DNA of 53,480 bases from Aureimonas sp. AU4. Its GTDB lineage: Bacteria > Pseudomonadota > Alphaproteobacteria > Rhizobiales > Rhizobiaceae. The notes beneath the pieces were generated by a model. It had not been told where the DNA came from and did not search any database. It worked only from the letters and a program-made list of their open reading frames with translations. This document shows positions 10,943-53,480 of this stretch, in pieces (positions within the stretch are counted from its first letter, which is position 1; each line of letters begins with the position of its first letter). Both the position numbers and the translations under genes were made by a program. The stretch lies in NCBI RefSeq assembly GCF_001463765.1, contig NZ_BBWK01000003.1, positions 1 through 53,480 of the forward strand. Reading direction: 5' to 3'.

Positions 10943-11704
10943 TCACGCTACGGCGCTGACGTGCTTCTCGTAGGCGGCGATCACCTCTGCGATCTCGCCC
11001 TGCATGCGAATACGGCCGTGTTCCAGCCACAATCCGGTCCGGCACCACTCGCGCAGGAGCGAGTTGGAATGCGAGGCCATGACGAGCAGGCCAGCTTCGC
11101 CGATAAAGGTCCGCAACCGTTGCTGCGCCTGCTCGATGAAGGCGGCGTCGCCCGCCCCGATGCCCTCGTCGATCAACAGTATTTCGGGACGGATCGAGGT
11201 CGAGACGGCAAAGGCGAGGCGCGTCGCCATACCGGCGCTGTAGGTGCGCAGCGGCATGTCGAGGAACTCGCCCAGTCCCGTATCGGCGCCGATCTGCGGC
11301 GCCCGGCGCTCGATCTCGCGCTTGGAGTAGCCGAGCAGCATGCCGCGCAGCGTGATGTTCTCCCAGCCCGTCGCCTCCGGGTCCATGCCGAAGCCGATAT
11401 CGAACATGGCGGCGACCTCGCCCTCGACGCGGACGCGCCCGCCGGTCGGCTCGTAGATGCCGGAGATCACGCGCAGGATCGTCGACTTGCCCGCGCCGTT
11501 GTGTCCGATCAGCCCGACGCGGTCACCATGGTCGAACCGCAGGGTCATGCTGTCGACCGCGCGAATGGCCACCTTGCCACGCCCCTCGCGCGGGCGAATC
11601 TGCCCCCCGGTGGCTGCGGCTAGGACGTTGTTCTTCAGCGAACGACTGCTCGCGTCGTAGATCGGGATGTCGACCACGACATCCTCGAAGGTTACGGATG
11701 CCAT
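10943..11704 (-). CDS. wzt: Polysaccharide/O-antigen ABC exporter ATP-binding protein (Wzt/KpsT type)
   Basis: This ATPase of about 253 residues powers export of an undecaprenyl-linked polysaccharide. Walker A is GHNGAGKST, the signature is YSAGMATRLAFA and Walker B is EILLIDEGIGAGD, all typical of the Wzt/TagH/KpsT group. It ends shortly after the nucleotide-binding fold, so it lacks the extra C-terminal domain with which some Wzt proteins recognise a terminally modified glycan. The ATG at 11704 is preferred; a TTG three codons upstream overlaps the permease stop. It follows wzm directly and closes the unit that begins near 15.9 kb. Confidence 0.9.
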   Translation of the reverse strand: MASVTFEDVVVDIPIYDASSRSLKNNVLAAATGGQIRPREGRGKVAIRAVDSMTLRFDHGDRVGLIGHNGAGKSTILRVISGIYEPTGGRVRVEGEVAAMFDIGFGMDPEATGWENITLRGMLLGYSKREIERRAPQIGADTGLGEFLDMPLRTYSAGMATRLAFAVSTSIRPEILLIDEGIGAGDAAFIEQAQQRLRTFIGEAGLLVMASHSNSLLREWCRTGLWLEHGRIRMQGEIAEVIAAYEKHVSAVA

Positions 11705-11709
11705 GCGGT

Positions 11710-12507
11710 TCAAGCCCAGTAGGCGACGCGCGAGCGAAAGCGCGCGTAGAAGAGGAAGGATGCCGTTCCGAGGATCGCCGTCAGGACGATCGCGACGACC
11801 CAGTGCAGGAGGCTGATCGGCTCCCCGAGCAGCGGTTCGCGTGCGATCTCGATGAAGTGGTAGAACGGGTTGAGGTTCACGAAGTGGGCGCGCTGCGGGA
11901 TCTGCTCCGCGCTCCAGAGAACCGGGGTCATGAAGAAGGCGACCTGGATCAGGCTCGCGATGATCAGCGGTATGTCGCGGAACCGCGCGCAGAGCGGCCC
12001 TAGGATCATCGCGCAGAAGACGGCATTGAGCGTGAACAGCCCGATCGCGGGTATGACGAGAAGCGTCGACCAGGACGGCTTGATCGAAAAGATCAGCGCG
12101 ACCGCGATGTAGATCACGAAGTTATGGGCGAAGGTAATGAGCTGCGACCAAGCGAACTGGAACACATAGATGCTGAGCGGCATGTGAATCTGTCGCACCG
12201 AGCTCGCCGCGGAGGTGAACACGGTGCAGGCATTCGTGATCGACGTGCCGATCAGACCCCACAGGATGAAGCCGAGCGCGAGGAACGGCAGGTAGGTCGA
12301 GATCTCCATGTTGAAGATCTGCGAGTACAGGACGCCAAGACCCGCCACCATGATGCCCATGGACAGGGTCAGCCAGAAGGGCCCGAGCACAGAGCGACGA
12401 TAATGCTTCTGGACGTCGCGCCAGCCAAGAAAGAGCCAGAGCTCGCGCCGCCGGATTCCGGCACGCAGGTCCGCCAAGCCGGCCTCGAGCCGGGCACGCC
12501 GATCCAT
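11710..12507 (-). CDS. wzm: Polysaccharide/O-antigen ABC exporter permease (ABC-2 type, Wzm)
   Basis: This 265-residue inner-membrane protein has six hydrophobic segments and the ABC-2 export pattern. The N-terminal WRDVQKHYRRSVLGPFWLT is the hallmark of Wzm/KpsM/TagG permeases, and the C-terminal FVNLNPFYHFIEIAREPLL is also conserved. It pairs with the adjacent ATPase to move lipid-linked polysaccharide to the periplasmic face. The start lies 3 bp after the rfbA stop, and the stop lies 5 bp before the wzt ATG, so the three genes form one operon. Confidence 0.92.
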   Translation of the reverse strand: MDRRARLEAGLADLRAGIRRRELWLFLGWRDVQKHYRRSVLGPFWLTLSMGIMVAGLGVLYSQIFNMEISTYLPFLALGFILWGLIGTSITNACTVFTSAASSVRQIHMPLSIYVFQFAWSQLITFAHNFVIYIAVALIFSIKPSWSTLLVIPAIGLFTLNAVFCAMILGPLCARFRDIPLIIASLIQVAFFMTPVLWSAEQIPQRAHFVNLNPFYHFIEIAREPLLGEPISLLHWVVAIVLTAILGTASFLFYARFRSRVAYWA

Positions 12508-12510
12508 ATC

Positions 12511-13377
12511 TCAGTTCTCCGCGATCCGCTGCAGGTAGCGGCCGTAGGTGCTCTTCCCCAGTCGCTTGCCCAGCGCCAGAAGCTGCTGCGCGTCGATGAA
12601 GCCCCTCTGGAAGGCGACCTCCTCCGGGCAGGCTATCTTGAAGCCCTGGCGATGCTCGAGCGTGCGCACGAACTCGGCCGCCTCGAGGAGCGAGTCCGGC
12701 GTGCCGGTATCGAGCCAGGCGAAGCCACGCCCCATCGTCTCGACGCTGAGGCTTCCCTCCTCGAGGTAGATCCGGTTGAGGTCCGTGATCTCGAGCTCGC
12801 CGCGCGGCGACGGCTTCAGGCTGCGTGCAAGACCGGAGGCACGGCCGTCGTAGAAGTAGAGGCCCGTGACGGCCCAGTTCGACGCCGGCTTCTCCGGCTT
12901 CTCCTCGATCGACAGGGCGCGACCACCCTTGTCGAAGGCGACGATGCCGTAACGCTCGGGATCGGCCACATGGTAGGCGAAGACGCTGGCGCCGCTCGGC
13001 CGCTCGGCGGCCCGCGTCAGAAGTTCCGGCAGACCGTGGCCATAGAAGAGGTTGTCGCCAAGGATGAGGACGGAACTCTCGCCCGCCACGAACTCCTCGC
13101 CGATCAGATAGGCTTGCGCCAGACCATCGGGACTCGGCTGCTCGGCATAGGTGAAGCTTACCCCCCACGCCTCGCCGCTGCCGAGCAGATCGCGAAAGCG
13201 CGGCAGGTCGTGGGGCGTCGAAATGATCAGGATGTCGCGAACGCCCGCCAGCATCAGCGTCGTCAGCGGATAGTAGATCATCGGCTTGTCGTAGACCGGC
13301 AGCAACTGCTTCGACGCGGTCAAGGTCATGGGATGCAGACGCGTCCCGCTGCCACCGGCAAGTACGATACCCTTCAT
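12511..13377 (-). CDS. rfbA: Glucose-1-phosphate thymidylyltransferase
   Basis: This 288-residue enzyme makes dTDP-glucose from dTTP and glucose 1-phosphate, the first step to dTDP-rhamnose. [19 protein letters not shown] and [17 protein letters not shown] are the nucleotidyltransferase signature, followed by [26 protein letters not shown] and [13 protein letters not shown]. The ATG at 13377 begins exactly at the conserved MKGIVLAGG. Its pathway partners rfbD, rfbB and rfbC lie at 25.7-28.2 kb, not next to it. It forms one operon with wzm and wzt, and the CysC-like gene ends 73 bp upstream. Confidence 0.96.
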
Positions 13378-13450
13378 GTCCTCGACGCTTCCCATCCGCT
13401 TGCGTTTCGGGCGGCTTATATCGGCAGCGGCCGGGATGCGCCACAGGCGC

Positions 13451-14917
13451 TCACGCTACGAGATGCCCTCGCTCCGCCAGAAGCGCGAAAACCTGCTCCG
13501 CAAGCGTTTCGGCCGGCGTCGACGCGGTATCGAGCCGGATGTCCGGCCGGTCGGGCGCCTCATAGGGACTGTCGATCCCGGTGAAGTTGCGCAGCTCGCC
13601 TCGACGCGCCCGGCGATAAAGGCCCTTGGGGTCCCGCTCCTCCGCAACCGCGAGCGGGGCATCGACGAAGACCTCCACGAACTCGCCCTCGCCGAGCAGA
13701 TCGCGGGCGAGAGCGCGCTCGGCACGGAAGGGTGAGATGAATGACGCGAGCACGATCAGTCCTGCATCCACCATCAGCTTCGCGATCTCGGCGACGCGGC
13801 GGATGTTCTCGACGCGATCGGCATCGGTGAAGCCGAGATCGCGGTTGAGACCGTGGCGTACATTGTCGCCGTCGAGCAGATACGTATGGCAGCCCTCAGA
13901 AATGAGGCGCGCCTCGAGCAGGTTGGCCACGGTCGACTTGCCGGAACCGGACAAGCCCGTGAACCACACGAGGACCGGCTTCTGGTGCTTGAGCGCGGCG
14001 CGCTGGGACTTGGAGACCGCAACGCTTTGCCAGTGGATGTTAGCGGCCCGGCGCAGGGCGAAGTCGAGGACGCCGGTGCCCAGAAGCGTTTCCTCGCTCG
14101 TGTCGTAGACGCGCACGCGGCGCAGGCGCCCACTGCGGTCGGTCAGATCGAAGGCGATGGGCGAACGCAGCGACAGGTTCACGGCTCCGGTCTCGCCGTC
14201 GCGCAGCGTGCGGGCGGCCAGCGGCTCGGCGATGCCCGGCTCGATGCGATGCTTGATCGTCGTGACGCTGCCGGTCACGATCTTTTCGCCGACTTTCAAT
14301 CGATAGGCGCGGCCCGCGATCAGCGGCACCCCGCCCTGCCAGACGATGCGGGCGGCGAACTGGTCGGCGACCTCGGGTCGCTCCGTGAGGCGGCAGATGA
14401 CGTCGCCGGGCGATACCGCAAGCGAACGGTCAAGGGTCAACCGGACCAGATCCCCATCCACGTCTTCGACGTCTTCGACCAAGGCACCGAGCCCCTCGCG
14501 AGCCTCGCAGACCGTGTCACCCTTCTGAAGAACGCCGGAAACGCACGAAACCTCGATCAGATGCCCCTCGACGGCACGAACGAGGGCACGCAACGGCTCG
14601 GCGTCGCCAGAGGCGGCGATGTCGCCGAGAATGGCGGCGAGGGACGAGGCTTGTGTCTCGCGAACGTTTCGGAAGCCGAAACGCCGGATGTCCGTGCTGC
14701 CGGCCGAGCCAAGGACGACGGCGTCGGGCGTTCCGCCCGCGGCGAGGCTTCGGGCCCGAACCAGATCATCCGGGCCGAAGTCGGAAAGGACCACGCAATC
14801 GACCACACCTCCTCGGAGCACGTCCGCGAGCGACACGATGTGATGACCGACGAGCGCGTCCTGAATGGCTCGCGCGTCGCCGATGACCGCGACACTCAGC
14901 CGACGATCTCGCCTCAC
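13451..14917 (-). CDS. APS kinase (CysC) fused to a CysN/NodQ-type region lacking the GTPase domain
   Basis: This 488-residue protein carries an apparently complete adenylylsulfate kinase at residues 305-488: P-loop GLSGSGKST (321-329), [15 protein letters not shown] (349-363), [10 protein letters not shown] and [19 protein letters not shown]. Residues 115-300 resemble the EF-Tu-like barrels of CysN/NodQ, ending in [13 protein letters not shown] just before the kinase, as in bifunctional CysNC. The GTPase that should precede them, with its P-loop and DxxG/NKxD motifs, is missing; a domain of about 110 residues ([17 protein letters not shown] onward) with no recognisable motif stands there. 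The expected activity is phosphorylation of APS to PAPS; sulfurylase GTPase activity is not expected. The GTG start overlaps the pdxJ stop as GTGA. Its place in a polysaccharide export operon suggests PAPS for glycan sulfation, which is inference. Confidence 0.85.
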
Positions 14918-15651
14918 GCGGAGAGCGCCGCAAGGAAGCGACGTACCGTCTCCGGCATTCCGTATTCCAGGGCATCGGCCGTCAGCGCGTGGCCGATCGA
15001 GACCTCGGCAAGCCGGGGGATCGCCCGCTTGAGCGCCGGCAGGTTGCCGACCGTCAGATCGTGTCCCGCGTTGACGTCCATCCCAAGCGCGAAGGCACGC
15101 TCGGCCGTCTCGCGAAGGCGGTCTATCTCCCGCATGGCGGCGTCGGCGTCGGCGTGGGTTGCGCCATAGGGGCCGGTATACAGTTCGATTCGCTCCGCGC
15201 CGAGTTCAGCCGCTGCCTCGAGACCCTGAGGAGATGGGTTCGAAAAAAGCGACACGCGAGTGCCCCGCCCTCGCAGACGCTCGATAACCGGTCGAAGGGT
15301 GTCGCGCGACGCCTCGAAGTCCCAACCGTGGTCCGATGTCGCCTGGCTCGGATCATCCGGCACCAGGGTCACCTGATCCGCCCGTGCATCCTCGCACAGG
15401 CGCAGGAAGTCATCGCTCGGATAACCCTCGATGTTGAACTCAGCGGACGGAAAGTCGGTGTCGATGAGTTCGCGCAGCGTCGGCAGATCCGAGAAGCGCA
15501 CGTGACGCTGATCGGGCCTCGGATGCACCGTCAGGCCTCCCGCGCCGCTTTGCAGGGCGAGGCGACCGATATGGGCAAGGTCGGGCCAAGGCAGGTTGCG
15601 CCGATTGCGCAACATCGCCACGGCGTTCACATTAACGGACAAGACGGTCAT
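14914..15651 (-). CDS. pdxJ: Pyridoxine 5'-phosphate synthase
   Basis: This 245-residue TIM-barrel enzyme makes pyridoxine 5'-phosphate in the DXP-dependent vitamin B6 pathway. It begins [18 protein letters not shown], and the active-site segments [26 protein letters not shown] and [11 protein letters not shown] are present. The longer open frame upstream (start at 15720) adds a lead unlike the family, so the ATG at 15651 is used. The stop overlaps the start of the CysC-like gene by four bases. pdxJ is more often found beside acpS; coupling to a sulfate-activation enzyme and a polysaccharide exporter is unusual. Confidence 0.93.
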
Positions 15652-15750
15652 GGGCGCGAAACTCCGGCACCGGACGAAAACCCGGCCTCCGTGGTTATGA
15701 GCAACGCCTGCGTCGATCAAGTCGCCGAGAAAGGGCGACCCAGCCGCCGG

Positions 15751-23601: not shown

Positions 23602-24753
23602 ATGTCCACGATCCCGTTCATCGATCTCGCCACGCAGCGCGACCGCGTGCGTCCTGCCATCGAGGCGCGGCTTGGGCGGATCATGGATCAGGGCTCGTTC
23701 ATCATGGGTCCCGACGTCACGGAACTGGAAATCGCGCTCGGCGCGTTTTCCGGCGCGAAGGAGACCATCACCTGCGGCTCTGGTACCGACGCGCTCGTCA
23801 TGCCGCTCATGGCCTGGGGCATCGGCTCGGGCGACGCCGTCTTCGTGCCGAGCTTCACCTTCGCGGCAACCGCCGAGGTCGTCGGTCTGGTGGGCGCGAC
23901 CCCGGTCTTCGTCGATGTGCTGCCCGGCACGTTCAATCTCGATCCAGCCCATCTGCGCCGCACCGTCGAGGAGGTCGTCCGACGCGGCAACCTCACCCCC
24001 CGGGCCATCATCGCGGTCGACCTCTTCGGCCAGATCGCCGACTATGCGCAGATCCGCGCCGTCGCCGACGAGTTCGGGCTGAAGCTCATCTCGGACGCCG
24101 CGCAGGGCTACGGCTCGACGCGCGACGGTCGTCAGGCCGGTGCCTTCGCGGATGTGGTGGCGACGAGCTTCTATCCCGCCAAGCCACTCGGTTGCTGGGG
24201 CGACGGCGGCGCGATGCAGACCGACGACGCGGAGCTTGCCGCGATCCTGCGCTCCATCCGCATCCACGGCCAGGGCAGCGACAAGTACGACAACGTCCGC
24301 CTCGGCCTGACGGCCCGCCTCGACACGTTCCAGGCGGCCGTGCTGATCGAGAAGCTTGCGATCTTCCCCGACGAGATCGAGGCCCGCACGCGCATTGCCC
24401 GGCGCTACCACGAACTTCTCGACGGGCTCGTCGCGCCGCAGACGATCGAGCCCGATGTCGTCTCGACCTGGGCGCAGTATACGGTCCGCATTCCCGGCGG
24501 ACATCGGGACGCCTTTACGGTCGCCATGCGCGAGCGCGGCGTTCCGACCGTCATCTACTACGGCAAGGGCCTGCACCAGCAGACGGCCTATCGGCACTGG
24601 CCTGTCGGCGGCAACGGATTGCCGGTGACTGAGGCCCTATGCCGCGATGTCGTGAGTCTGCCGATGCACGCCTATCTCGACGAAGAGACGCAGGATCGGA
24701 TCGTCGACGCGGTGCGCGCCGCGCTTGCGTCGCTCGGCCGGGCCGCCGCCTAA
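23602..24753 (+). CDS. DegT/DnrJ/EryC1/StrS nucleotide-sugar aminotransferase, WbpE-like
   Basis: This PLP enzyme of about 383 residues begins STIPFIDLATQRDRV. It has the family segments GSFIMGPDVTELE, CGSGTDALVMPLMAWGIG, VPSFTFAATAEVV, and the PLP lysine in SFYPAKPLGCWGDGGA, then HGQGSDKYDNVRLG and LDTFQAAVL. The wording is close to WbpE, which aminates the C3-keto group of a UDP-GlcNAc-derived uronic acid; substrate assignment is by resemblance. The ATG at 23602 has GGAG upstream, while the ATG at 23548 has none. The stop overlaps the convergent glycosyltransferase stop. Confidence 0.88.
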   Translation: MSTIPFIDLATQRDRVRPAIEARLGRIMDQGSFIMGPDVTELEIALGAFSGAKETITCGSGTDALVMPLMAWGIGSGDAVFVPSFTFAATAEVVGLVGATPVFVDVLPGTFNLDPAHLRRTVEEVVRRGNLTPRAIIAVDLFGQIADYAQIRAVADEFGLKLISDAAQGYGSTRDGRQAGAFADVVATSFYPAKPLGCWGDGGAMQTDDAELAAILRSIRIHGQGSDKYDNVRLGLTARLDTFQAAVLIEKLAIFPDEIEARTRIARRYHELLDGLVAPQTIEPDVVSTWAQYTVRIPGGHRDAFTVAMRERGVPTVIYYGKGLHQQTAYRHWPVGGNGLPVTEALCRDVVSLPMHAYLDEETQDRIVDAVRAALASLGRAAA

Positions 24754-25694
24754 GATCGCGCTTCGGGGTCCAGCGTGAACCGACGAAGAAGCTGGCGCGC
24801 CACGCGCCAGATCGGCTTCGGCGTGCGGACATAGGCGTGGTGCGCGGCGAGCAGCAAGTAGGGATGGCGTCCCCAAAAGCGGCTGATCGGCAGCGCGAAG
24901 GGGTTGGGCGTCCGTGAGACAGCTTCCTCCGTCAGCGCGGTCCGGCTCTGCGCATCGAGCCGGGAGGCCCCCAAGAGACCCGGAAGCGCCTCCGCCGCCG
25001 TGACCCAGTAGCCTGCCCGCTCGCTGACGAGAGCGAAAAGCCGTTCCGCCGCGTGGGCCGCCGTGCCGTCCAACTGGCCCTTCTCGCGCGGGAACAGGTC
25101 TTCGAGTTCGTTCACCGAAAAGGCGCGCAAGGCATTGCGTCGGAACCAGAACATGGAACCGGCCGCAAAGCGTTTCTGCGCCAGCTCGTCGAAGTCGAGA
25201 GAGATGTCCATGCGTTCGGCAACGCGCCGCATCGCCCGGCGGTTGAGCGCGATCCGGCCCTCGAGCGGCAGAAGATGGGCGAGCGGCGCAACGAGCCCCA
25301 ACTCCCGCTCGCGCTCCATCAGCCGCAGCGCGTCGGGAGTCCCGCCCTCTCCGACGAGCAGCGAGTCGGTCATGTAGTGCCGCCAGTCCTCGCCGTCGGC
25401 ACGATGCTTCGATCGCTTGGTATGGAGCTTCAGACCGATGTCGAAGTCGTCCCCCATCTCGCGCAGCGCCCGGATGAAGGGCAGGACGTCGCGACCCCGG
25501 TTCTCGGTCCGCAGACGCCGCGTGTAGACGAGATGAGGCGTATCGACGCTCGCCAGTTCGATATCGTCGTCGCGGCAGGTGATCACGAGACCAAAGGGCC
25601 GGTCGAAGGCGGCCGCGATCTCGCGCGCCATGTCCGCCCAAACGTCCGGGTAGTGGACGTGGACGAAGACGACCGGCACGGCCCTCCCCGTCAT
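24750..25694 (-). CDS. Rhamnan synthesis F-type glycosyltransferase
   Basis: This 314-residue protein fits the rhamnan synthesis F (RgpF) family. Typical segments are VFVHVHYPDVWADMA, TENRGRDVLPFIRAL, IGLKLHTKRSKHR and FAAGSMFWFRRNALR. RgpF-like proteins add rhamnose in surface polysaccharides, which fits its position directly after rfbD. The ATG at 25694 overlaps the rfbD stop as ATGA, which decides the start against a longer frame. The downstream end converges on the aminotransferase gene, with a four-base stop overlap and no room for a terminator. Confidence 0.84.
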   Translation of the reverse strand: MTGRAVPVVFVHVHYPDVWADMAREIAAAFDRPFGLVITCRDDDIELASVDTPHLVYTRRLRTENRGRDVLPFIRALREMGDDFDIGLKLHTKRSKHRADGEDWRHYMTDSLLVGEGGTPDALRLMERERELGLVAPLAHLLPLEGRIALNRRAMRRVAERMDISLDFDELAQKRFAAGSMFWFRRNALRAFSVNELEDLFPREKGQLDGTAAHAAERLFALVSERAGYWVTAAEALPGLLGASRLDAQSRTALTEEAVSRTPNPFALPISRFWGRHPYLLLAAHHAYVRTPKPIWRVARQLLRRFTLDPEARS

Positions 25695-26575
25695 CGCGCG
25701 GATGCGCGCTCCAGCGCTTCGAGGCAACGGACGACGCCCGAGCGCCAGTCCGGCAGCCGGTGCCCGAAGCTCTCGGCAAAGCGTGTCGTATCGAGCCGCG
25801 AGTTGGCCGGACGCTTGGCCGGCGTCGGATAGTCGCTGGTCGCAATCGGCTCGACACGGGCGGACGGTCCGCCGCGCTCGGCGGAGCGGGCGAAGATCTC
25901 TTCCGCGAAGCCCGCCCAGGTCGTCTCGCCCTCGGCTACCATGTGGAAGGTTCCGCGTGCCGTCGGCGTGCCGGTCCTGAGACCGCGCGCCACGGCCACG
26001 ATGCCCTCGGCGATGTCCGGCGCATAGGTCGGCGTGCCGTGCTGATCGGCGACCACGCGAACCACGTCCCGGTCGCTTGCCAGCCGCAGCATGGTCTTCA
26101 GGAAGTTCTGCCCGAACGGGCCGTAGACCCAGGCCGTGCGCAGGATCGCGTGCGCGGGGTTAGCGTCGGCGACGGCTAGCTCGCCATCGAGCTTGGAGCG
26201 TCCGTAGACGCCTTGCGGACCGGTCGGCGCGTCTTCGCGATAGCGGCCTTCGCCTTGGCCGTCGAAGACGTAGTCCGTCGAGATCTGCACGACCGGAAGG
26301 TCGAATTCCGCCGCGACCGAGGCGACGTTGCGCGAGCCGTCGCGGTTCACGAGAAAGGCCGCCGCCTCGTCGCTCTCGGCACGATCCACCGCCGTATAGG
26401 CGGCCGCGTTGACCACGACGTCGGGCTTGAGTTCGGCAACGATGTCGCGGACCGATCGAGCCTGCGTGATGTCGAGGTCGGGCCGTCCGACGGCGACGAT
26501 CTCGACGCCCTGCCCGTCGAGGGCCAGCATCGCCTGAGCGACCTGTCCCTCGCGCCCGGTGACCAGAATGCGCAT
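25691..26575 (-). CDS. rfbD: dTDP-4-dehydrorhamnose reductase
   Basis: This 294-residue extended SDR performs the last step of dTDP-L-rhamnose synthesis, using NAD(P)H. MRILVTGREGQVAQAM is the cofactor site; VVNAAAYTAVDRAE, ISTDYVFDGQGEGRYRE, YGRSKLDGE (catalytic Tyr-Lys) and LRTAWVYGPFGQNFLKTML are all characteristic. It lies four bases after rfbB and overlaps the following glycosyltransferase gene, so it is part of the rfbC-rfbB-rfbD-rgpF-like operon. Confidence 0.96.
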   Translation of the reverse strand: MRILVTGREGQVAQAMLALDGQGVEIVAVGRPDLDITQARSVRDIVAELKPDVVVNAAAYTAVDRAESDEAAAFLVNRDGSRNVASVAAEFDLPVVQISTDYVFDGQGEGRYREDAPTGPQGVYGRSKLDGELAVADANPAHAILRTAWVYGPFGQNFLKTMLRLASDRDVVRVVADQHGTPTYAPDIAEGIVAVARGLRTGTPTARGTFHMVAEGETTWAGFAEEIFARSAERGGPSARVEPIATSDYPTPAKRPANSRLDTTRFAESFGHRLPDWRSGVVRCLEALERASAR

Positions 26576-26579
26576 GGGC

Positions 26580-27650
26580 TCAGACCTTCTCCGCCGTCTT
26601 CGAGCCGAGCCGCTCGCCGAAGTAGCGCTTCTCGCGGATCGGACGCCACCAGCTCTCGTTGTCCAGATACCAGCGGATCGTCTTCTCCAGGCCCGTGTCG
26701 AAGGTCTCCTCCGCGCGCCAGCCGAGCTCGGTCTCGATGCGGGTGGCGTCGATCGCGTAGCGCAGGTCGTGGCCGGGTCGATCCGTCACGAAGTCGATGA
26801 GCTGGCGACGCGAACCGGTGTTGAGCGGTGGCGCGTGGCGGTCGAGCGTGTCGCAGATCGTCTCGACGACGGTGAGGTTCGAGCGCTCGTTGCGCCCGCC
26901 GATATTGTAGGAGCGGCCGGGTACGCCCTTCGTGGCGACGAGCGCCAGCGCCTTGGCGTGGTCGCCGACATAGAGCCAGTCGCGCACGTTCTCGCCCCGG
27001 CCGTAGACCGGCAGGCGCCGCCCCTCCAGCCCGTTGAGGATCATCAGGGGGATGAGCTTCTCGGGGAAGTGGAACGGCCCGTAGTTGTTCGAGCAGTTCG
27101 AGAGAACCACCGGCAGGTGGTAGGTGTGGAACCAGGCCATCGCGAGGTGATCGGACGCCGCCTTCGAGGCCGAGTAGGGCGAGGACGGCGCGTAGGGCGT
27201 CTCCTCGGTGAAAAGGCTGTCGTCTAGCGGCAGATCGCCGTACACCTCGTCGGTCGAGACGTGATGGAAGCGGAAGTCCGCCTTTCGTCCATCGGGAAGC
27301 TTCGCCCAGTAGGCGCGCACGGCTTCCAGAAGCTCGTAGGTGCCGACGATGTTGGTCTGGATGAAGTCGCCCGGACCGTCGATCGAGCGATCGACATGGC
27401 TCTCCGCCGCCAGATGCATGACGGCGTCCGGCTTCTCGGCCTCGAGCAGTTCGGACACGAAGCGCCGATCGAGAATGTCCCCTTGCGCGAAGCGATAACG
27501 CGGGTTCGCCTCGACCGAGGCCACCGAGCCCAGCGTCGCGGCATAGGTCAGCTTGTCGAGGTTGACGACGGAATGGTCCGTATCGGCGATCAGGTGGCGG
27601 CAGACCGCCGACCCGATGAAGCCAGCACCGCCGGTGACGAGAATCTTCAT
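26580..27650 (-). CDS. rfbB: dTDP-glucose 4,6-dehydratase
   Basis: This 356-residue extended SDR converts dTDP-glucose to dTDP-4-keto-6-deoxyglucose. [20 protein letters not shown] binds [40 protein letters not shown] (catalytic Tyr-Lys) and [18 protein letters not shown] are the RmlB signature. The length is normal. Its ATG overlaps the rfbC stop by four bases. Its substrate is made by RfbA, encoded about 12 kb away at 12511-13377. Confidence 0.97.
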
Positions 27651-28222
27651 CGGCTGGCCTCCTCGAAGACGAAGGGTGTCCGCGCCTCTTCCAGCGTCGG
27701 CGCGCTCGCATCCTTGGCGGAGAGAACGGGTTGGCGACCGGCGAGCGGCCAGTCGATGCCGATGGCCGGATCGTCGAAGCGGATCGAGCGATCATGCTCG
27801 CCGCTATAGCGAGCGGTCACCTTATAGAAGACCTCGGTGTCGGGCTCGAGAGTCAGGAAACCGTGGGCAAACCCCTTCGGCACCAAAATCTGGTTGAAGA
27901 GATCGGCCGACAGCTCCAGCGCGACCCACTGGCCGTAGCTCGGCGAGCCCTTCCGGATGTCGACCGCGACATCCAGGATGCGGCCGCGCAGGACGCGGAC
28001 CAGCTTGTCCTGCGCGAAAGGGGGCTCCTGGTAGTGAAGGCCGCGCAGCGTTCCGGCTTCGGCGGAATAGGACTGGTTGTCCTGCATCCAGTCGAGGTCG
28101 ATGCCGTTCTCGCGCAGCCGGTCCTGATTGAAGGTTTCGGAGAAGAAGCCACGGTGGTCGCCGAACTTGCGGGGCTTGATCTCCAGAACCTCGGGAATTC
28201 TCAGCTGCCGTACGTCCAGCAT
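27647..28222 (-). CDS. rfbC: dTDP-4-dehydrorhamnose 3,5-epimerase
   Basis: This cupin-fold epimerase of about 191 residues performs the third step of dTDP-L-rhamnose synthesis. [38 protein letters not shown] (with the catalytic histidine), [30 protein letters not shown] and the [11 protein letters not shown] end are all typical. Several in-frame starts exist (28234, 28231, 28222); the ATG at 28222 has GAGGTGA at good distance and best matches the family start. It is the first gene of this rfb operon. Confidence 0.95.
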
Positions 28223-28377
28223 TCGTCGCATCACCTCGGGATGGCGCGGCCGGGCCGCGCAGAGCCGGCCGGACTACAAGGACCCAGGCGCGGCGGTTGC
28301 CGCGCACGGCCTATCGCATGGGGCGTGCAGGCTCAAGCGTCGGAATGGTCCGACGGGGTGGCCGGCCGGCATTTCGG

Positions 28378-32762: not shown

Positions 32763-33761
32763 TTATTTCTTTCTCGCCTTCCGGTGCTTTGCAAGGCCCC
32801 CGCCATCAACCGCCGCGAGAAGGAGACGCGCGGTCTCTTCGTCCGTGATGAGCTCGTCGACGAGGTGCCCGCGCAACGCTCCGAGGATGGCCTCGACCTT
32901 GGAGGCTCCCGCCGCCACCCCAACAACCCGGGTCTCCGTAGGAAACGGAAGCGGGACGCTGAGCACGCGGCCGTTAAGGGCGCAATCGAGGACGCGCCCT
33001 TCCCGATCGAAGACCCAGCCGATGATCTCGCCCACCGCACCTTGCGCCATGACCTCGTCGCACTCCTGCTGTGAGATGAACCGGTCGACCAGAAGCTGTG
33101 CCTGCGGACCCATCTCGCCGATTCCGACGAAGGCGATGTCCGGCCGCTCCGCCAGTTCGTGCAACGGCCTCAGCATGGCCTGTCCTCGCAGGACGGTGCG
33201 CTCCTCGGCCGAAGGTGCGACGACCGGCAGCGGCATCGGGTAGTGCGCCGCCGCGATCTTGTCGGCAAGCGAGAAGATGACGTTGTAGACGGCGGCCGTG
33301 CCGTCCGGCGCGATGCTGCCGGTCAGCGATACGATGCGGTGCTGCGGGCAGCGCACCGGCGACATCTGCTCGACAGCCGCCCGGAGGCTCCTTCCGGTCC
33401 CGACCCCTACGACAAGCGGCTCGGCGCGCTGCAACTCCCGTTCGAAACGCGCGGCACAGGCGGAGGCGATACCGAGAAGCGAAGGTCTTGCCGAATCGGA
33501 CATGGCGACCTCGATGGCATCCAATCCGAAGTGCTCTGCGAGGCTGCGGCCGAGCTCCAGCGATTCGGCAACCGGATGCTCGATCCGCACCCGCACAAGC
33601 CCCGACGACATGGACAGGGAGACCAGACGCTGCGCCGCCTGCCGCGACAGACCCAGTTTGGCCGCGATCTCGTCCTGCGTGTTTCCCGCGACGTAGTAGA
33701 GCCAACCGGCGCGCGCCGCCATGTCGAGCCTGTTGGCAGGCTCCTCCTTGGATTTGGCCAT
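32763..33761 (-). CDS. SorC/DeoR-type sugar-binding transcriptional regulator
   Basis: This protein of about 332 residues has an N-terminal helix-turn-helix (TQDEIAAKLGLSRQAAQRLV, about residues 30-49) and a C-terminal sugar-phosphate-isomerase-like effector domain of the SorC family, with VVGVGTGRSLRAAV, VSLTGSIAPDGTAAVYNVI and GEMGPQAQLLVDRFIS. It should sense a polyol or phosphorylated sugar and control the adjacent transporter operon, which it directly precedes on the same strand. The ATG at 33761 has GGGAGGACACG before it, which decides the start. Confidence 0.9.
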   Translation of the reverse strand: MAKSKEEPANRLDMAARAGWLYYVAGNTQDEIAAKLGLSRQAAQRLVSLSMSSGLVRVRIEHPVAESLELGRSLAEHFGLDAIEVAMSDSARPSLLGIASACAARFERELQRAEPLVVGVGTGRSLRAAVEQMSPVRCPQHRIVSLTGSIAPDGTAAVYNVIFSLADKIAAAHYPMPLPVVAPSAEERTVLRGQAMLRPLHELAERPDIAFVGIGEMGPQAQLLVDRFISQQECDEVMAQGAVGEIIGWVFDREGRVLDCALNGRVLSVPLPFPTETRVVGVAAGASKVEAILGALRGHLVDELITDEETARLLLAAVDGGGLAKHRKARKK

Positions 33762-33923
33762 CGTGTCCTCCCGAGCGCTGCGGGCGGGCAAGATGGGCGA
33801 GGGAGGGAGGTGGGCGCAAGCGCTCGCTCAAGCTTTCGACGATTTGCGGCTTGTCTGCGCATTTCCGGCAAAAGCCGCTTGGCATTGCTGCGGTTTCGCG
33901 CATCATTCCCGCAGGGCAGCAAA

Positions 33924-35351
33924 ATGGAAGGACGGGGCTTGAGCGGGTTCGACGAGATGCTGGTGTCCGATGCGGACGTGCGCGCCCCCTATCGCCGCTT
34001 TCATTCCTGGTTCTCGCAACAGGTTCCCCAGACACTCGCCCAGAAGGCCACCGAGGCGGAAGGTTTCTTCCGGCGAACCGGCATCACCTTCAACGTGTAC
34101 GGGGAACAGGAGGCGTCCGAGCGGCTGATTCCATTCGACCTCGTGCCGCGCATCATCTCCGGCGCCGAGTGGAGCCGGCTGGCGGAGGGGATCGAACAGC
34201 GCGTTACAGCGCTCAACGCCTTCCTCGACGACATCTACCACGGCCAGGAGATCGTGCGGGCGGGCATCGTTCCCAGACGCCTGATCGACAACAACGAGGC
34301 CTTCCTGCCCCAGATGGTCGGCTTCCGGCCGCCGGGCGGCGTTTACACGCACATCATCGGCGTCGACATCGTGCGCACGGCCGAAAACCAGTTCTACGTC
34401 CTGGAGGACAACGCCCGGACGCCATCCGGCGTGTCCTACATGATCGAGAATCGCGAAACGATGATGCAGATGTTTCCCGAACTCTTCGCACAGAACAGGG
34501 TGCGGCCGGTCGAGACGTACCCCGGGCACCTGCGCCGCTCGCTCTCGGCCGTCGCGCCGGCCGCTTGCGAGGGCTCGCCGCGCGTCGCGATCCTGACGCC
34601 CGGCATCCACAACTCGGCCTATTACGAGCACGCCTTCCTGGCCGACCAGATGGGCGTCGAGCTGGTGGAAGGATCCGACCTCAAGCTGATCGACGGGCGC
34701 ATCGCAATGCGTACGACCGAAGGCTACCTGCCCATCGACGTCCTCTACCGGCGGGTCGACGACGCCTATCTCGACCCCCTCGCCTTCCGTTCGGACTCGA
34801 TGCTGGGCGTGCCCGGCATCATGGACGTCTACCGCGCGGGCGGCATCACGATCGCCAACGCGCCCGGAACCGGCATCGCCGACGACAAGGCGATCTATTC
34901 CTACATGCCGGCGATCGTCGAGTTCTACACCGGACGCCCCGCCCTTCTGGAGAACGTTCCGACGTTCCGCTGCGCGGAGCCCGACAGCCTCAGCCATGTC
35001 CTCGACAACCTGCACGAGCTCGTCGTGAAGGAGGTCCACGGCTCCGGCGGCTACGGCATGCTGGTCGGCCCCGCCGCCTCGAAGGCGGAGCGCGAGGTCT
35101 TCGCCGCCAAGCTGCGGGAGCGACCCGGCAACTACATCGCCCAGCCGACCCTTGCGCTCTCGACCGTTCCCATCCTGACGGAAGCCGGCCTCGCCCCGCG
35201 CCATGTCGACCTGCGCCCCTTCGTCCTCGTCAGCGACGCCGTGAAGATCATTCCCGGCGGCCTGACGCGCGTTGCCCTCAAGGAGGGATCGCTCGTCGTC
35301 AATTCCAGTCAGGGCGGCGGTACGAAGGATACCTGGGTGCTGGAGGACTGA
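33924..35351 (+). CDS. Circularly permuted ATP-grasp protein (DUF404/DUF407), Anbu-associated
   Basis: This 475-residue protein matches the circularly permuted ATP-grasp type 2 family. Typical segments are FFRRTGITFNVYGEQEASER, RIISGAEWSRLAEGIEQR, YVLEDNARTPSGVSYMIENR, TPGIHNSAYYEHAFLADQ, VKEVHGSGGYGMLVGP and SSQGGGTKDTWVLED. Proteins of this kind are predicted amide ligases and usually sit with an alpha-E protein, a transglutaminase and the Anbu peptidase; the first and last are present here. The frame is open far upstream, but that part is antisense to the SorC gene; the ATG at 33924 is preferred with modest ribosome-site support (AGGGCAG). Confidence 0.9.
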   Translation: MEGRGLSGFDEMLVSDADVRAPYRRFHSWFSQQVPQTLAQKATEAEGFFRRTGITFNVYGEQEASERLIPFDLVPRIISGAEWSRLAEGIEQRVTALNAFLDDIYHGQEIVRAGIVPRRLIDNNEAFLPQMVGFRPPGGVYTHIIGVDIVRTAENQFYVLEDNARTPSGVSYMIENRETMMQMFPELFAQNRVRPVETYPGHLRRSLSAVAPAACEGSPRVAILTPGIHNSAYYEHAFLADQMGVELVEGSDLKLIDGRIAMRTTEGYLPIDVLYRRVDDAYLDPLAFRSDSMLGVPGIMDVYRAGGITIANAPGTGIADDKAIYSYMPAIVEFYTGRPALLENVPTFRCAEPDSLSHVLDNLHELVVKEVHGSGGYGMLVGPAASKAEREVFAAKLRERPGNYIAQPTLALSTVPILTEAGLAPRHVDLRPFVLVSDAVKIIPGGLTRVALKEGSLVVNSSQGGGTKDTWVLED

Positions 35352-35411
35352 CCGCGTTCAAGCCTTTCTCTCGCCGATCTTCCTCACTCCTCGGAGGCAT
35401 TTGCCGACCTC

Positions 35412-36353
35412 ATGCCGCTTCTCGGACGCACCGCCAACGGCCTCTTCTGGATGCAACGCTACATCGAAAGGGCCGAGAACACGGCCCGCCTGCTCGATGC
35501 GGGACTGCGCCTGTCGCTCACCAACCTGAGCGGGCAGCCGGAAGAGTGGCAGTCGGTGCTGGTGTCGGCAGGCATCGAGACCCAGTATCTCGAGAAGTAC
35601 GACGACTTCGCCCCCGAGCGGATCATCGACTTCATGGTCCGCGACCTCGACAACCCGTCCTCGATCCTGTCCTCGATCGGCGTTGCCCGGACGAACGGCC
35701 GCATGGTGCGAACCGCGCTGACTCGCGAGACCTGGGAGGCGATCAACGAGAGCTGGATCATCCTGCGCTCGCGCTTCGCGCGGCCGGTCGACGATCTGCC
35801 GGCTGTTCTGGATCTGGTGAAGGCGCGCACGGCGCTGATTCGTGGGTCGTTCTACGGCACGATGCTGCGCAACGAGATCTTCGACTTCTGCAATCTCGGC
35901 ACGTTTCTGGAGCGCGCGGACAACACGGCGCGCATTCTCGACGTCAAATACTGGGTGCTTCTGCCGGACCATTCCTCGGTCGGCTCCTCGCTGGACAACT
36001 ACCAGTGGGGCTCGCTTCTGCGCTCCGTCTCGGCCCTGAGGTCCTATGCGTGGGAGTACGAGCCGGAGTTCCGCGCGACCGACATCATCGACTTCCTCGT
36101 TCTCAACAAGCGCATGCCCCGCTCGCTGAGCTACTCCTACCGCTGCATCAACGACAGCCTCGACTACCTCGCGCGGGCCTATGGCGTCGAGCACGAGTGC
36201 CACCGGTTGGCGAAGGAGACGGCGGCGCGCTTTGAGTCGCGCACCATCAAGCAGATCATCGACGGGGGCTTGCACGAATTCCTGGAGGACTTGATCGTGG
36301 ACGGGAACCGCCTGTCCAACGAGATCGCGCGTTCCTACGGCTTCTTCTCCTGA
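35412..36353 (+). CDS. Alpha-E domain protein (DUF403), Anbu-associated
   Basis: This 313-residue all-helical protein starts PLLGRTANGLFWMQRYIERA, the diagnostic alpha-E opening, and continues with ENTARLLDAGLRL, FLERADNTARILDVKYWVLL and FLVLNKRMPRSLSYSYRCI. Its biochemical role is unknown; it is nearly always encoded beside a circularly permuted ATP-grasp protein. It begins 60 bp after that gene on the same strand and is followed, 130 bp later, by the Anbu peptidase gene. In many genomes a transglutaminase-like gene would stand in that gap. Confidence 0.92.
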   Translation: MPLLGRTANGLFWMQRYIERAENTARLLDAGLRLSLTNLSGQPEEWQSVLVSAGIETQYLEKYDDFAPERIIDFMVRDLDNPSSILSSIGVARTNGRMVRTALTRETWEAINESWIILRSRFARPVDDLPAVLDLVKARTALIRGSFYGTMLRNEIFDFCNLGTFLERADNTARILDVKYWVLLPDHSSVGSSLDNYQWGSLLRSVSALRSYAWEYEPEFRATDIIDFLVLNKRMPRSLSYSYRCINDSLDYLARAYGVEHECHRLAKETAARFESRTIKQIIDGGLHEFLEDLIVDGNRLSNEIARSYGFFS

Positions 36354-36483
36354 GAGTCTCAGCCTGTAAGATGCGCTACCCCCATCCCGGGCGGATTGAG
36401 TCGCGCAATCTTGTGGCCCGGTCCAGCCTCGCGCGATAAGCAGGCCCGCAAGTGAGGCGGCTCGGCTGCGGGAGGCGATATTC

Positions 36484-37242
36484 ATGACCTATTGCGTCGG
36501 CATGCTCCTCGATCGGGGCATCGTGTTCATGTCGGACACGCGGACGAATGCGGGTGTCGACAACATCTCCGTTGTCACCAAGCTTCGCTCCTGGAGTGTT
36601 CCGGGGGACCGCTTCCTTTGCCTTCTCTCGGCCGGCAACCTTGCGACCACCCAATCGACGATCTCGCTTCTGGAGGAGCGCGGAGTGCTGCCGTCCGAGA
36701 GGCGCGGCAACTTTCTGAAGCAGCCCTCGATGTTCCAAACCGCCAAACTGGTGGGCGAAACGCTGCGCGAGGTCATCTCCTACACGGCCGAGGGCGGTCC
36801 CAACGCCGAGAGCCGTTTCCTCGGCTCGTTCATCCTGGGTGGCCAGATCAAGGGCGGGCGACCGCGCCTGTTCATGATCTATCCCGAAGGCAACTTCATC
36901 GAGGCGGGGCCGGACAACCCCTTCTTCCAGATCGGCGAACACAAGTACGGCCGCCCGATCATCGTGCGGACCTACGACGCGGCGATGCGACTGGAGGACG
37001 CGGTCAAGCTGCTGCTTGTGTCGTTCGATTCGACCATCAAGTCCAATCTCTCCGTTGGCCTACCCATCGACCTCCAACTCTACGAGACTGACGCGTTCGC
37101 CGCCGGCTACCGTCAACGGTTCGACCAGCGCGACCCGTATTTCCGGATTATCTCGGACGGGTGGTCCGACTCGCTCAAGGCGGCGTTCGACAGCCTGCCG
37201 GGCTTCGTTCCACAGGAGCCGGGCAAACCCGCCGCCAGCTGA
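36484..37242 (+). CDS. Anbu: ancestral proteasome-like (HslV-related) peptidase
   Basis: This 252-residue protein starts [20 protein letters not shown]. That is the Anbu/BPH form of the Ntn-hydrolase fold, in which Thr2 becomes the N-terminal nucleophile after Met removal. [30 protein letters not shown] and [20 protein letters not shown] also match. Anbu assembles into open-ring or helical oligomers, and its substrate is not known. GGAGGCG lies upstream of the ATG. It follows the ATP-grasp and alpha-E genes on the same strand. Confidence 0.92.
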
Positions 37243-50051: not shown

Positions 50052-50333
50052 TTGTCTTCAACCTTCGACCGCGTGGCCGACATCATCTCCGAAACGAGCG
50101 AGATCGATCGCAGCCAGATCACGCCCGAGAGCCATACGATCGACGATCTCGGCATCGATTCCCTGGACTTCCTCGACATCGTCTTCGCGATCGACAAGGA
50201 GTTCGGAATCAAGATCCCGCTCGAGACCTGGACCCAACGCGTCAACGACGGCCAGGCCAGCACCGAGGAATACTTCGTGATGAAGAACCTAGTCGCCAAG
50301 ATCGACGAGCTACGCGCGGCCAAGGCTGCCTGA
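50052..50333 (+). CDS. acpXL: Acyl carrier protein AcpXL for very-long-chain fatty acids of lipid A
   Basis: This 93-residue acyl carrier protein has the phosphopantetheine site as [20 protein letters not shown] (Ser37). The rest is distinctive for AcpXL: the C-terminal extension [18 protein letters not shown] replaces the short end of ordinary ACP. It carries the 27-octacosanoyl-type chain that LpxXL transfers to lipid A. The start is a TTG at 50052 with GAGG eight bases upstream. It leads the cluster acpXL-fabF2-fabF1-adh, divergent from dusA. Confidence 0.95.
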
Positions 50334-50360
50334 CACAGCTCCTTCGCCTAGGCTTCTCAA

Positions 50361-50390
50361 GGCCGCGCCTCCCGACGCGCGCGGCCCCTT
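50361..50390 (+). terminator. Attenuator-like hairpin between acpXL and fabF2XL
   Basis: GGCCGCGC (50361-50368) and GCGCGGCC (50379-50386) form an 8-bp stem with a 10-base loop, followed by CCTTT. The T-run is weak, so partial termination after acpXL is plausible, giving more carrier protein than ketosynthase. Confidence 0.45.
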
Positions 50391-50406
50391 TGGAAACGGA
50401 ATCGTC

Positions 50407-51603
50407 ATGCCGGATGCCTCGCACACGGTGCTGATCACGGGGGTTGGCCTCGTATCGTCGCTCGGCGAGGGTGTCGAGGCGCACGTGTCCCGCCTGCGGG
50501 ACACGACGACGCCGCAGCCGCGCATCGAAGCCGACCGGTTCGCCCCCTACCTCGTCCATCCGCTGCCGGAGATCGACTGGAGCCGTCAGATCGCCAAGAA
50601 GGGCGACCAGCGGCAGATGGAGACCTGGCAGAAGATCGGCGTTTATGCTGCGGGGCTCGCGCTCGAGGATGCGGGCATCCCGGCCGAGGAGAGCGTCCGC
50701 TCAGGCGTTGACATGATCGTGGCGGCCGGCGGCGGCGAGCGCGACCCGGCGGTGGACGCCCTCGTCATGGCGCGTGCGCGCGGCCTCGACGATCCGCGCC
50801 CGCTGATGAACGAGCTCCTGTCGAGCGAATTGCGGCCGACCCTGTTCCTGGCCCAGCTTTCGAACCTCATGGCGGGCAACATCTCGATCGTCCACAAGGT
50901 GACCGGCTCGTCGCGGACCTTCATGGGCGAAGAGGGTGCGGGCGTGTCCGCCGTGCAGGTTGGCGCCGCTCGCGTGCGGGCCGGACAGAGCCGCATCTGC
51001 CTCGTCGGCGGCGCCTTTTCGGCCGAGCGCAAGGACCTCCTCCTCAACTACGAACTGGCGGGAATGCTGCTTCGCGAGGGCTGGCAGCCGGTGTCCGCGC
51101 GGCGCGGCGGGAACGGCGGCCTCGTGCCCGGAAGCATGGGCGCCTTCCTTGTTCTCGAGTCCGCAGAAAGCGCGGCCGAGCGCGGCGCGACCGCCTATGG
51201 CGCGGTGCGTTTCGTCGCCGGCGATCGAGGTCGCCCCGAGGGCATGGCCGAGCGTCTGGGCACGATGATCGAGGAAAGCGGCGCGATCGCCGACGAAACC
51301 CTCGTCCTGTCGGGTGCGACCGGCCTCGCGGACGACATGGTGCGCGAGACGCAGGCGCTGGCCCCGCGTTTGAACGAGGTGCCGGTCCGCGCCGTCGCGA
51401 ACCTTGTCGGGCACGGCTTCGAGGCGCAGTTCCCCGCCTCCATCGCGCTGGGGGCCATCTGCCTGTCGCGCGGCATTCTCCCTTTGCCGGCCGGCGGCGG
51501 CGAGGAGCGTCCAGCCGACTTCGCGCCGCGTTCGGTGGTCGTGACGAGCCATGGTCATCGTCGCGGCGAGGGCGTCTGCGTGCTCGACACGACCGCGCGC
51601 TGA
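50407..51603 (+). CDS. fabF2XL: Ketosynthase-like protein without catalytic cysteine (FabF2XL)
   Basis: This 398-residue protein has the thiolase/ketosynthase fold of FabF but not its active site. The region that should carry the nucleophile reads TFMGEEGAGVSAVQVG (171-186); aligned with TACASGASAIQLG of the next gene, the cysteine position is Glu176. The first catalytic histidine motif (NAHGTSTP) is absent, while LVGHGFEAQFPASIALG still resembles the second. It corresponds to FabF2XL of the rhizobial cluster and probably works as a non-catalytic partner of FabF1XL, like chain-length factors of polyketide synthases; the partner role is inference. Confidence 0.88.
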   Translation: MPDASHTVLITGVGLVSSLGEGVEAHVSRLRDTTTPQPRIEADRFAPYLVHPLPEIDWSRQIAKKGDQRQMETWQKIGVYAAGLALEDAGIPAEESVRSGVDMIVAAGGGERDPAVDALVMARARGLDDPRPLMNELLSSELRPTLFLAQLSNLMAGNISIVHKVTGSSRTFMGEEGAGVSAVQVGAARVRAGQSRICLVGGAFSAERKDLLLNYELAGMLLREGWQPVSARRGGNGGLVPGSMGAFLVLESAESAAERGATAYGAVRFVAGDRGRPEGMAERLGTMIEESGAIADETLVLSGATGLADDMVRETQALAPRLNEVPVRAVANLVGHGFEAQFPASIALGAICLSRGILPLPAGGGEERPADFAPRSVVVTSHGHRRGEGVCVLDTTAR

Positions 51604-51620
51604 AGGGACGGGAGAGAATC

Positions 51621-52907: not shown

Positions 52908-52942
52908 CACCCGATCCGAGCGAACCCGAGGTTTTCAGTACG

Positions 52943-53480
52943 ATGCGCGCATTGCAACTCATCGCCGACAAGGATCTGCGGCCGGTCGAGATCGACGGAC
53001 CGGGTGATCCGGGGCCCGGCGAGGTCACGGTGCGCATCTCCGTCGTCGCGCTCAACCATATCGACGTCTGGGGTTGGCGCGGCATGGCCTTCGCCAAGCG
53101 CAAGCTGCCGCTGACGATCGGCGCGGAGGCGTCGGGCGTCGTCGAGCGGCTCGGCGAGGGCACGAGCGGTCTCGTGCCCGGCCAGCTCGTGTCGATCTAC
53201 GGCGCGCGGACCTGCGGCCTGTGCCGGGCCTGCCGGGCGGGCGCCGACAATCTGTGCGAGCATGTCGGCGGCGTTCACGGCTTCCATCTCGACGGCTTCG
53301 CGCAAGAGAGCATCAACCTGCCGGCCCGCCTCCTCGTCCCCGCCCCTCCCGGCTGCGACGCCGTCGGCGCGGCGCTGGCGCCCGTCACCTTCGGAACGGT
53401 CGAGCACATGCTGTTCGACAACGCCAAGCTCGAGCCAGGCGAGACGATCCTCGTTCATGCCGGCGGGTCGGGGATCGGAA
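52943..53480 (+). CDS. Zinc-binding alcohol dehydrogenase of the AcpXL cluster (3' end outside window)
   Basis: The first 179 residues of a medium-chain dehydrogenase/reductase are present. GEVTVRISVVALNHIDVWGW, IGAEASGVVERLGEG and the structural-zinc cysteines in CGLCRACRAGADNLC are typical, and the frame runs off the window just as the cofactor site VHAGGSGIG begins. In rhizobia the gene at this place (fabXL/adh) works in very-long-chain fatty acid synthesis for lipid A, next to lpxXL. The exact reaction is not settled. Confidence 0.88.
   Translation, partial: MRALQLIADKDLRPVEIDGPGDPGPGEVTVRISVVALNHIDVWGWRGMAFAKRKLPLTIGAEASGVVERLGEGTSGLVPGQLVSIYGARTCGLCRACRAGADNLCEHVGGVHGFHLDGFAQESINLPARLLVPAPPGCDAVGAALAPVTFGTVEHMLFDNAKLEPGETILVHAGGSGIG

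Follow-up and report, generated by a model that had tools for sequence, protein, structure and literature searches.

We analysed a stretch of DNA of 53,480 nucleotides from Aureimonas sp. AU4 (from here: the window), which is contig C3 of a 4.49 Mb genome in 139 contigs. We report here a gene at positions 13,451 to 14,917 that encodes a relative of the bifunctional protein CysNC lacking the GTPase (G) domain. It is likely, in our view, that this protein is a CysNC reduced to its adenosine 5′-phosphosulfate (APS) kinase, with a pseudoGTPase remnant in front, and that it supplies 3′-phosphoadenosine 5′-phosphosulfate (PAPS), probably for a surface polysaccharide. Judged by its sequence, its function is most likely that of an APS kinase, and by descent it would be a CysNC without the GTPase that defines this family.

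The first-pass annotation had read in this gene an intact APS kinase, CysN domains 2 and 3 and the CysNC-type linker, with the G domain missing. Pfam and NCBIfam searches and the reading of motifs agree with that observation and confirm it. Pfam APS_kinase matches residues 314–463 (E 5e-70), and the model for stand-alone APS kinases, TIGR00455, scores 258.9 bits, above its cut-off of 138.7. The kinase fold, the motifs and the family score are together those of an APS kinase (CysC), and a linker of the CysNC type leads into this C-terminal domain. The EF1A-type C-terminal barrel is recognized by Pfam GTP-eEF1A_C at residues 186–277 (E 9e-10) and barrel 2 is visible in the alignment only; both barrels are present though eroded. 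The NCBIfam CysN model TIGR02034 matches residues 126–283 with an E value of 1e-18, yet under its cut-off. The CysNC model PRK05506 aligns residues 126–484 with model positions 264–630 of 632, leaving model positions 1–263, the G domain, without counterpart, and its score of 394.8 lies under the family cut-off of 715. No Pfam or NCBIfam family was found in residues 1–116 at E ≤ 1, and ahead of the barrels the P-loop, DTPGH and NKxD motifs are absent. The same motifs are absent from the nearest full-length relative, a protein of Aureimonas jatrophae with 66–67% identity, where the architecture that the first-pass annotation had suggested looking for in other genomes was found. The open reading frame begins with a GTG overlapping the TGA of pdxJ, in line with the earlier description of an in-frame gene abutting pdxJ.

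CysNC relatives without the G motifs occur in 11 of 21 Aureimonas genomes. In seven of these 11 the motif-less protein is the only APS kinase found, and the other four (G001, G004, G010 and G016) additionally possess a normal CysNC. Of the ten remaining genomes, one (G013) encodes an APS kinase that lacks barrels, G007 gave a marginal partial match and eight gave none. In a tree of 100 rows based on barrels and kinase, in which some rows are identical because the same genome was entered twice, a branch supported at 100/100 separates the 11 motif-less proteins from the 89 remaining rows, which are normal CysNC. Within the clade, the proteins of AU4 and A. jatrophae are sister to those of G001 and G011 (100/94). 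A further tree, of 66 rows, likewise kept the 11 together (99/96); in it, the label “normal” is wrong for G304 (altered P-loop, no DTPGH) and for G156, whose sequence reaches the contig end, so that its missing G domain proves nothing.

The region ahead of the barrels (from here: N-domain) differs within this clade. It measures 152–189 residues in seven of the 11 members (A. flava, G004, G008, G010, G002, G016 and G019), and these seven, compared as a group with 22 normal G domains by hhalign, gave an E value of 3e-17 (probability 98.9, 135 columns), or 4e-15 when the best-preserved of them was left out. On the strength of these profiles, the N-domain of the seven, as a group, is a decayed G domain. 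A tblastn search with G domains detected five of the seven, best G019 (1e-16), and not G002 and G016. All seven lack the P-loop, DTPGH and NKxD patterns, and Pfam GTP_EFTU was found at E ≤ 0.001 neither in three of the seven scanned nor in A. jatrophae. In G001 and G011 hardly any residues are left ahead of the barrels, the N-domain being gone in these two of the 11. In AU4 and A. jatrophae it is 112–115 residues long, with a mutual identity of 39–40%. This makes the novel N-domain proposed by the first-pass annotation less likely: in seven clade members the region is a decayed G domain, and in two it is missing.

For AU4 itself, structure models suggest that the N-domain is probably a remnant of the G domain. 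The full-length model superposes on CysN including the G domain and aligns to residues 21–434 of 1zun_B, and the AlphaFold2 model of the N-domain alone reached a predicted template modelling score (pTM) of 0.73. The lack of G motifs, by which pseudoGTPases are recognized, is found in both AU4 and A. jatrophae. None of the sequence tests linking the AU4 N-domain to G domains (hhalign, semi-global and anchored alignment) was convincing or significant; one of them trimmed the A. jatrophae N-domain to the length of the AU4 one, a handicap for A. jatrophae. Comparison with PDB sequences yielded two matches at chance level (E 0.25 and 7.7). Elsewhere, weak matches to the N-domain occur in 15 of 394 genomes of the family; the one inspected, which is the best (8.5e-4), lies in a frame that reads by eye as a fatty-acid oxidation enzyme.

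Selection was estimated as omega by the method of Nei and Gojobori (NG86); as several pairs have a high or uneven synonymous rate (dS), the ratios are rough. Between AU4 and A. jatrophae, omega is 0.43 for the N-domain, 0.34 for the barrels and 0.08 for the kinase, and over eight pairs of the clade the ranges are 0.43–0.69, 0.26–0.53 and 0.05–0.14, respectively. Three of four pairs of normal Aureimonas CysNC gave 0.10–0.12 for the G domain, 0.05–0.09 for the barrels and 0.11–0.15 for the kinase; the fourth, involving the G001 copy, gave 0.40, 0.26 and 0.22, and two normal pairs from other genera 0.24–0.51, 0.19–0.51 and 0.14–0.54. Hence, a mild slope is possible in normal CysNC, but none shows the strict kinase with a loose remainder that characterizes the clade. 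Moreover, of the positions without variation among 22 rows of normal CysNC (21 distinct, one duplicate), the AU4 protein retains 79 of 79 in the kinase and 17 of 34 in the barrels; across the 11 members the kinase keeps 76–79 and the barrels 14–21. Constraint has shifted to the kinase, and N-domain and barrels are relaxed, not free. Selection still acts on the gene, in support of the earlier view that it is not dead. The companion proposal, that N-domain and barrels were recruited for another role, runs against the finding that both evolve much faster than the kinase while the parts of normal Aureimonas CysNC are about equally constrained in three of four pairs.

A normal cysD and cysN exist elsewhere in the genome, where the first-pass annotation had advised searching for them. 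Contig C83 carries cysH and cysD (PF01507) adjoining cysN, together with a gene read by eye as sulfite reductase. This separate CysN has an intact GTPase with GSVDDGKST, DTPGH and NKMD, and passes TIGR02034 (578.3 over 336.1) and NF003478 (599.9 over 590). CysH carries CC and CxxC pairs, which we take to be the mark of APS reductases, its type being assigned by eye. By PF01583, the protein described here is the only APS kinase of the genome. The cysH/cysD pair is present in all 21 genomes of the genus, and a Sat-type sulfurylase was found in none of the 21, the same family matching five of 14 control genomes. With CysDN and CysH present and no Sat-type enzyme, CysDN is most likely the source of APS, and cysteine synthesis would not require PAPS; the absence of any APS kinase from eight of the 21 genomes, all of which keep cysH/cysD, fits this. 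Apart from that, the separate CysN (L124:6720-8465) has 581 residues, and the CysN family models stop near residue 471; the approximately 110 additional C-terminal residues include a hydrophobic stretch, and A. jatrophae has a protein of equal length at the matching place (L127).

The surroundings of the gene point to polysaccharide synthesis (Table 1). From pdxJ through the APS kinase gene, rmlA and wzm to wzt, the genes run in one direction and either overlap or lie no more than 55 bases apart, and this gene order, pdxJ and wzt included, is common to A. jatrophae. The neighbours of the APS kinase gene are pdxJ and rmlA, and cysD is not adjacent. The products of rmlB and rmlC score 484.3 over 365.1 (TIGR01181) and 212.8 over 155.75 (TIGR01221), and the presence of rmlB, rmlC, rmlD and an RgpF-like gene on the contig indicates a rhamnose-containing polysaccharide. 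Each of the nine other clade members has cysQ and a gene for a bacterial sugar transferase upstream, and in A. flava both satisfy the family tests (Bac_transf; CysQ, TIGR01331, 280.5 over 228.8). CysQ clears 3′-phosphoadenosine 5′-phosphate (PAP), the product of sulfotransferases. The specialised PAPS-forming enzyme envisaged by the first-pass annotation thus stands in part: a PAPS-forming role beside polysaccharide genes is plausible, and the recruitment of barrels and N-domain is unsupported.

Table 1 Features of the APS kinase locus (positions in the window)
Feature	Positions	Strand	Remarks
CysNC relative without G domain	13451..14917	-	488 aa; APS kinase, eroded CysN barrels, collapsed N-domain
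N-domain, residues 1-112	14582..14917	-	Small alpha/beta domain lacking G motifs; probable G-domain remnant
CysN/EF1A-like beta barrels 2 and 3, residues 113-287	14057..14581	-	Eroded
APS kinase domain, residues 288-488	13454..14056	-	
APS kinase P-loop GLSGSGKST, residues 321-329	13931..13957	-	ORF translation and conserved alignment columns
APS kinase motif DGDNVRHG, residues 349-356	13850..13873	-	ORF translation and conserved alignment columns
pdxJ	14914..15720	-	Pfam PdxJ E 3e-76; stop codon overlaps GTG start of APS kinase gene
rmlA/rfbA, glucose-1-phosphate thymidylyltransferase	12511..13395	-	Next gene downstream; TIGR01207 480.7 bits, cut-off 360.65
Wzm-like polysaccharide ABC permease	11710..12507	-	Pfam ABC2_membrane; best NCBIfam galactan_ABC_perm, 294 bits, below cut-off 380
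Wzt-like polysaccharide ABC ATPase	10943..11713	-	Pfam ABC_tran; best NCBIfam galactan_ABC_ATP, 314.6 bits, below cut-off 400
rgpF-like, rmlD, rmlB, rmlC	24750..28234	-	dTDP-rhamnose/rhamnan genes, same contig; Pfam RgpF, RmlD_sub_bind

Two further gene groups of the window were noted. Genes for CP_ATPgrasp, Alpha-E and a proteasome-like protein follow each other at positions 33159-37242; clusters of such genes occur in other bacteria. Positions 50073-53479 hold an 86-aa reading frame, two ketoacyl-synthase genes and an alcohol dehydrogenase domain, which presumably resemble the cluster for the long-chain fatty acid of lipid A in Rhizobiales.

We propose the following course of events. The ancestor would have been a bifunctional CysNC, one copy of which lost the GTPase motifs in an Aureimonas ancestor. 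Strong selection would have been maintained on the kinase, while relaxed constraint would have let first the GTPase domain and later the barrels decay. In AU4 and A. jatrophae the former G domain may persist as a compact 112-residue alpha/beta pseudoGTPase without nucleotide motifs. The separate CysD-CysN would make APS, also feeding APS reductase, and the kinase described here would divert part of that APS by phosphorylating it to PAPS. Remnant and barrels would at most provide a scaffold for folding or oligomerization, or modulate the kinase weakly. The PAPS would probably go into sulfating a surface polysaccharide that the neighbouring Wzm/Wzt transporter exports. In this account the protein's architecture, the clade, the gradient of constraint, the separate CysDN and the neighbouring genes are shown by the data, and the activity of the enzyme, the derivation of the AU4 N-domain from a G domain and the destination of the PAPS are inferred.

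Two findings weigh against this proposal. The model of the N-domain alone matches CheY-like receivers and has no P-loop. In addition, the sulfotransferase families PF00685, PF13469 and PF09037, the informative ones among the four searched, have no match in the AU4 genome; PF09037 had no match in the controls either, but one in A. jatrophae, and a search with PF03567 was uninformative as it matched nothing anywhere, controls included. Likewise, Pfam scans of 28 of the 58 listed window genes, plus pdxJ, revealed no sulfotransferase. With none found in the genome, we can only infer that PAPS is used for the polysaccharide. The A. jatrophae match is an Stf0-type gene (G009:C23:817950-818642, L132; E 2e-67) and the sole PF09037 match among the 21 genomes. 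As a separate observation, the normal CysNC genes of four Aureimonas genomes (L118, L120, L121 and L122) lie near PF00685/PF13469 matches on the same contigs.

The receiver-like model agrees with a different history: a complete deletion of the G domain, such as G001 and G011 show, followed in the lineage of AU4 and A. jatrophae by the gain of an unrelated CheY-like receiver domain that now regulates the kinase. We regard this as unlikely: the full-length model superposes on CysN including the G domain, and the AU4 N-domain matched no receiver profile, indeed no Pfam family, at E ≤ 10 (the HMMER filters discard most matches above about 0.1), with a single weak match (0.056) for A. jatrophae in the same search. 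The earlier expectation that residues 1–115 hold no GTPase fold consequently fares unevenly, being opposed by the superposition and favoured by the missing P-loop and the receiver-like shape of the isolated domain. That N-domain and barrels have gained a specific new job, such as binding CysD, a sulfotransferase or a ligand, would fit the open frame retained in two species, their omega values below 1, and, by analogy, an Entamoeba APS kinase whose inactive sulfurylase-like domain raises kinase activity according to the available part of PMC13213808. Nevertheless, the constraint on both regions is relaxed relative to the kinase, the barrels keep just half of their invariant positions and two of 11 clade members have no N-domain, which makes such a job rather doubtful. 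An artefact of annotation, a frameshift, an assembly error or a dying pseudogene, for which nothing but the eroded N-terminal half speaks, is highly improbable. Searches by tblastn with five normal G domains (E ≤ 1e-3) were silent in every frame of the window and of the A. jatrophae locus, so no frameshift is hidden, and the identical architecture at the equivalent locus of A. jatrophae, an independent assembly of another species, excludes an assembly error; relatives in which such a fault explains the missing G domain, named by the first-pass annotation as a possible refutation, were thus not found. The intact and strongly constrained kinase argues against a dying gene.

Similar losses are seen by sequence in other families of the order, among the matches listed (323 of 397 genomes surveyed had a match). 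G398 and G304 have an altered P-loop, GGAGSGK[ST], and lack DTPGH but retain NKMD; G398 matches GTP_EFTU from model position 66 onward. In the 66-row tree both group with normal-motif proteins of their own family, with starred support and away from the Aureimonas clade, so the canonical motifs were lost at least twice. In G058 a weak relic of the G domain remains (tblastn 4e-4), and barrel 2 is, judged by eye, lost; no G domain was found by tblastn in the DNA examined of G199 (piece L141, only 3.2 kb), G054 and G204. As G058 and G199 sit on long branches and G054 is unplaced, the mutual independence of these losses is unsure. In a separate observation, the CysNC genes at L139:3379-5145 and L158 combine the P-loop GGAGSGK[ST] with a shortened switch I region, no DTPGH and a retained NKMD; this P-loop may still bind nucleotide, and these proteins are possibly an intermediate stage with altered nucleotide use. 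More speculatively, and with little confidence, one may imagine that by losing P-loop and switch I the G domain collapsed into a signal-sensing, receiver-like module gating PAPS for glycan sulfation, a conversion of CysNC recurring in the order.

Our proposal of a reduced CysNC would mean that a translational-type GTPase domain is caught at several stages of loss within one enzyme family while the fused kinase stays intact: motifs changed with NKxD kept (G398 and G304), a remnant that can still be recognized, a compact alpha/beta core and total loss of the domain. Such a natural series can be used to study the contribution that a dead upstream module still makes to an APS kinase. It also calls for caution, as a plain APS kinase may stand behind names such as CysNC or “sulfate adenylyltransferase subunit”. 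An APS kinase in an organism that apparently assimilates sulfate via APS reductase would mark a need for PAPS elsewhere, most likely for sulfation.

The literature searched, with subscription papers mostly outside its scope, contained no description of a CysNC without G domain, nor did the accessible parts of PMC1780047, PMC4342817 and PMC4373884. Compared with CysNC/NodQ (PRK05506), the AU4 protein has barrel 2, barrel 3, linker and APS kinase arranged in the same order, with 46–59% identity to normal members in the matched part, but differs in lacking P-loop, DTPGH, NKxD and an adjacent cysD and in scoring below the family cut-off. With stand-alone CysC (TIGR00455) it shares a complete kinase, whereas its approximately 290 extra N-terminal residues include barrels derived from CysN. 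As far as the available part of PMC13213808 goes, the sulfurylase-like domain of Entamoeba histolytica EhAPSK (PDB 23VK) has lost substrate binding, and the Thiobacillus denitrificans APSK likewise has an inactive sulfurylase-like N-domain. In both, as in AU4, the APS kinase is preceded by a module that once took part in sulfate activation and is no longer active; their dead module, however, is a Sat-type ATP sulfurylase, an unrelated protein, whereas that of AU4 comprises the CysN GTPase and barrels. An APS kinase behind a dead Sat-type module is thus already known, and the fused-CysN version with a collapsed GTPase was absent from the literature searched. In the accessible part of PMC5593906, the pseudoGTPase domains pG1 and pG2 of p190RhoGAP, which are descended from GTPases, as the AU4 domain probably is, and like it lack G motifs, are described as conserved and as affecting RhoGAP activity; unlike them, the AU4 domain is bacterial and eroding.
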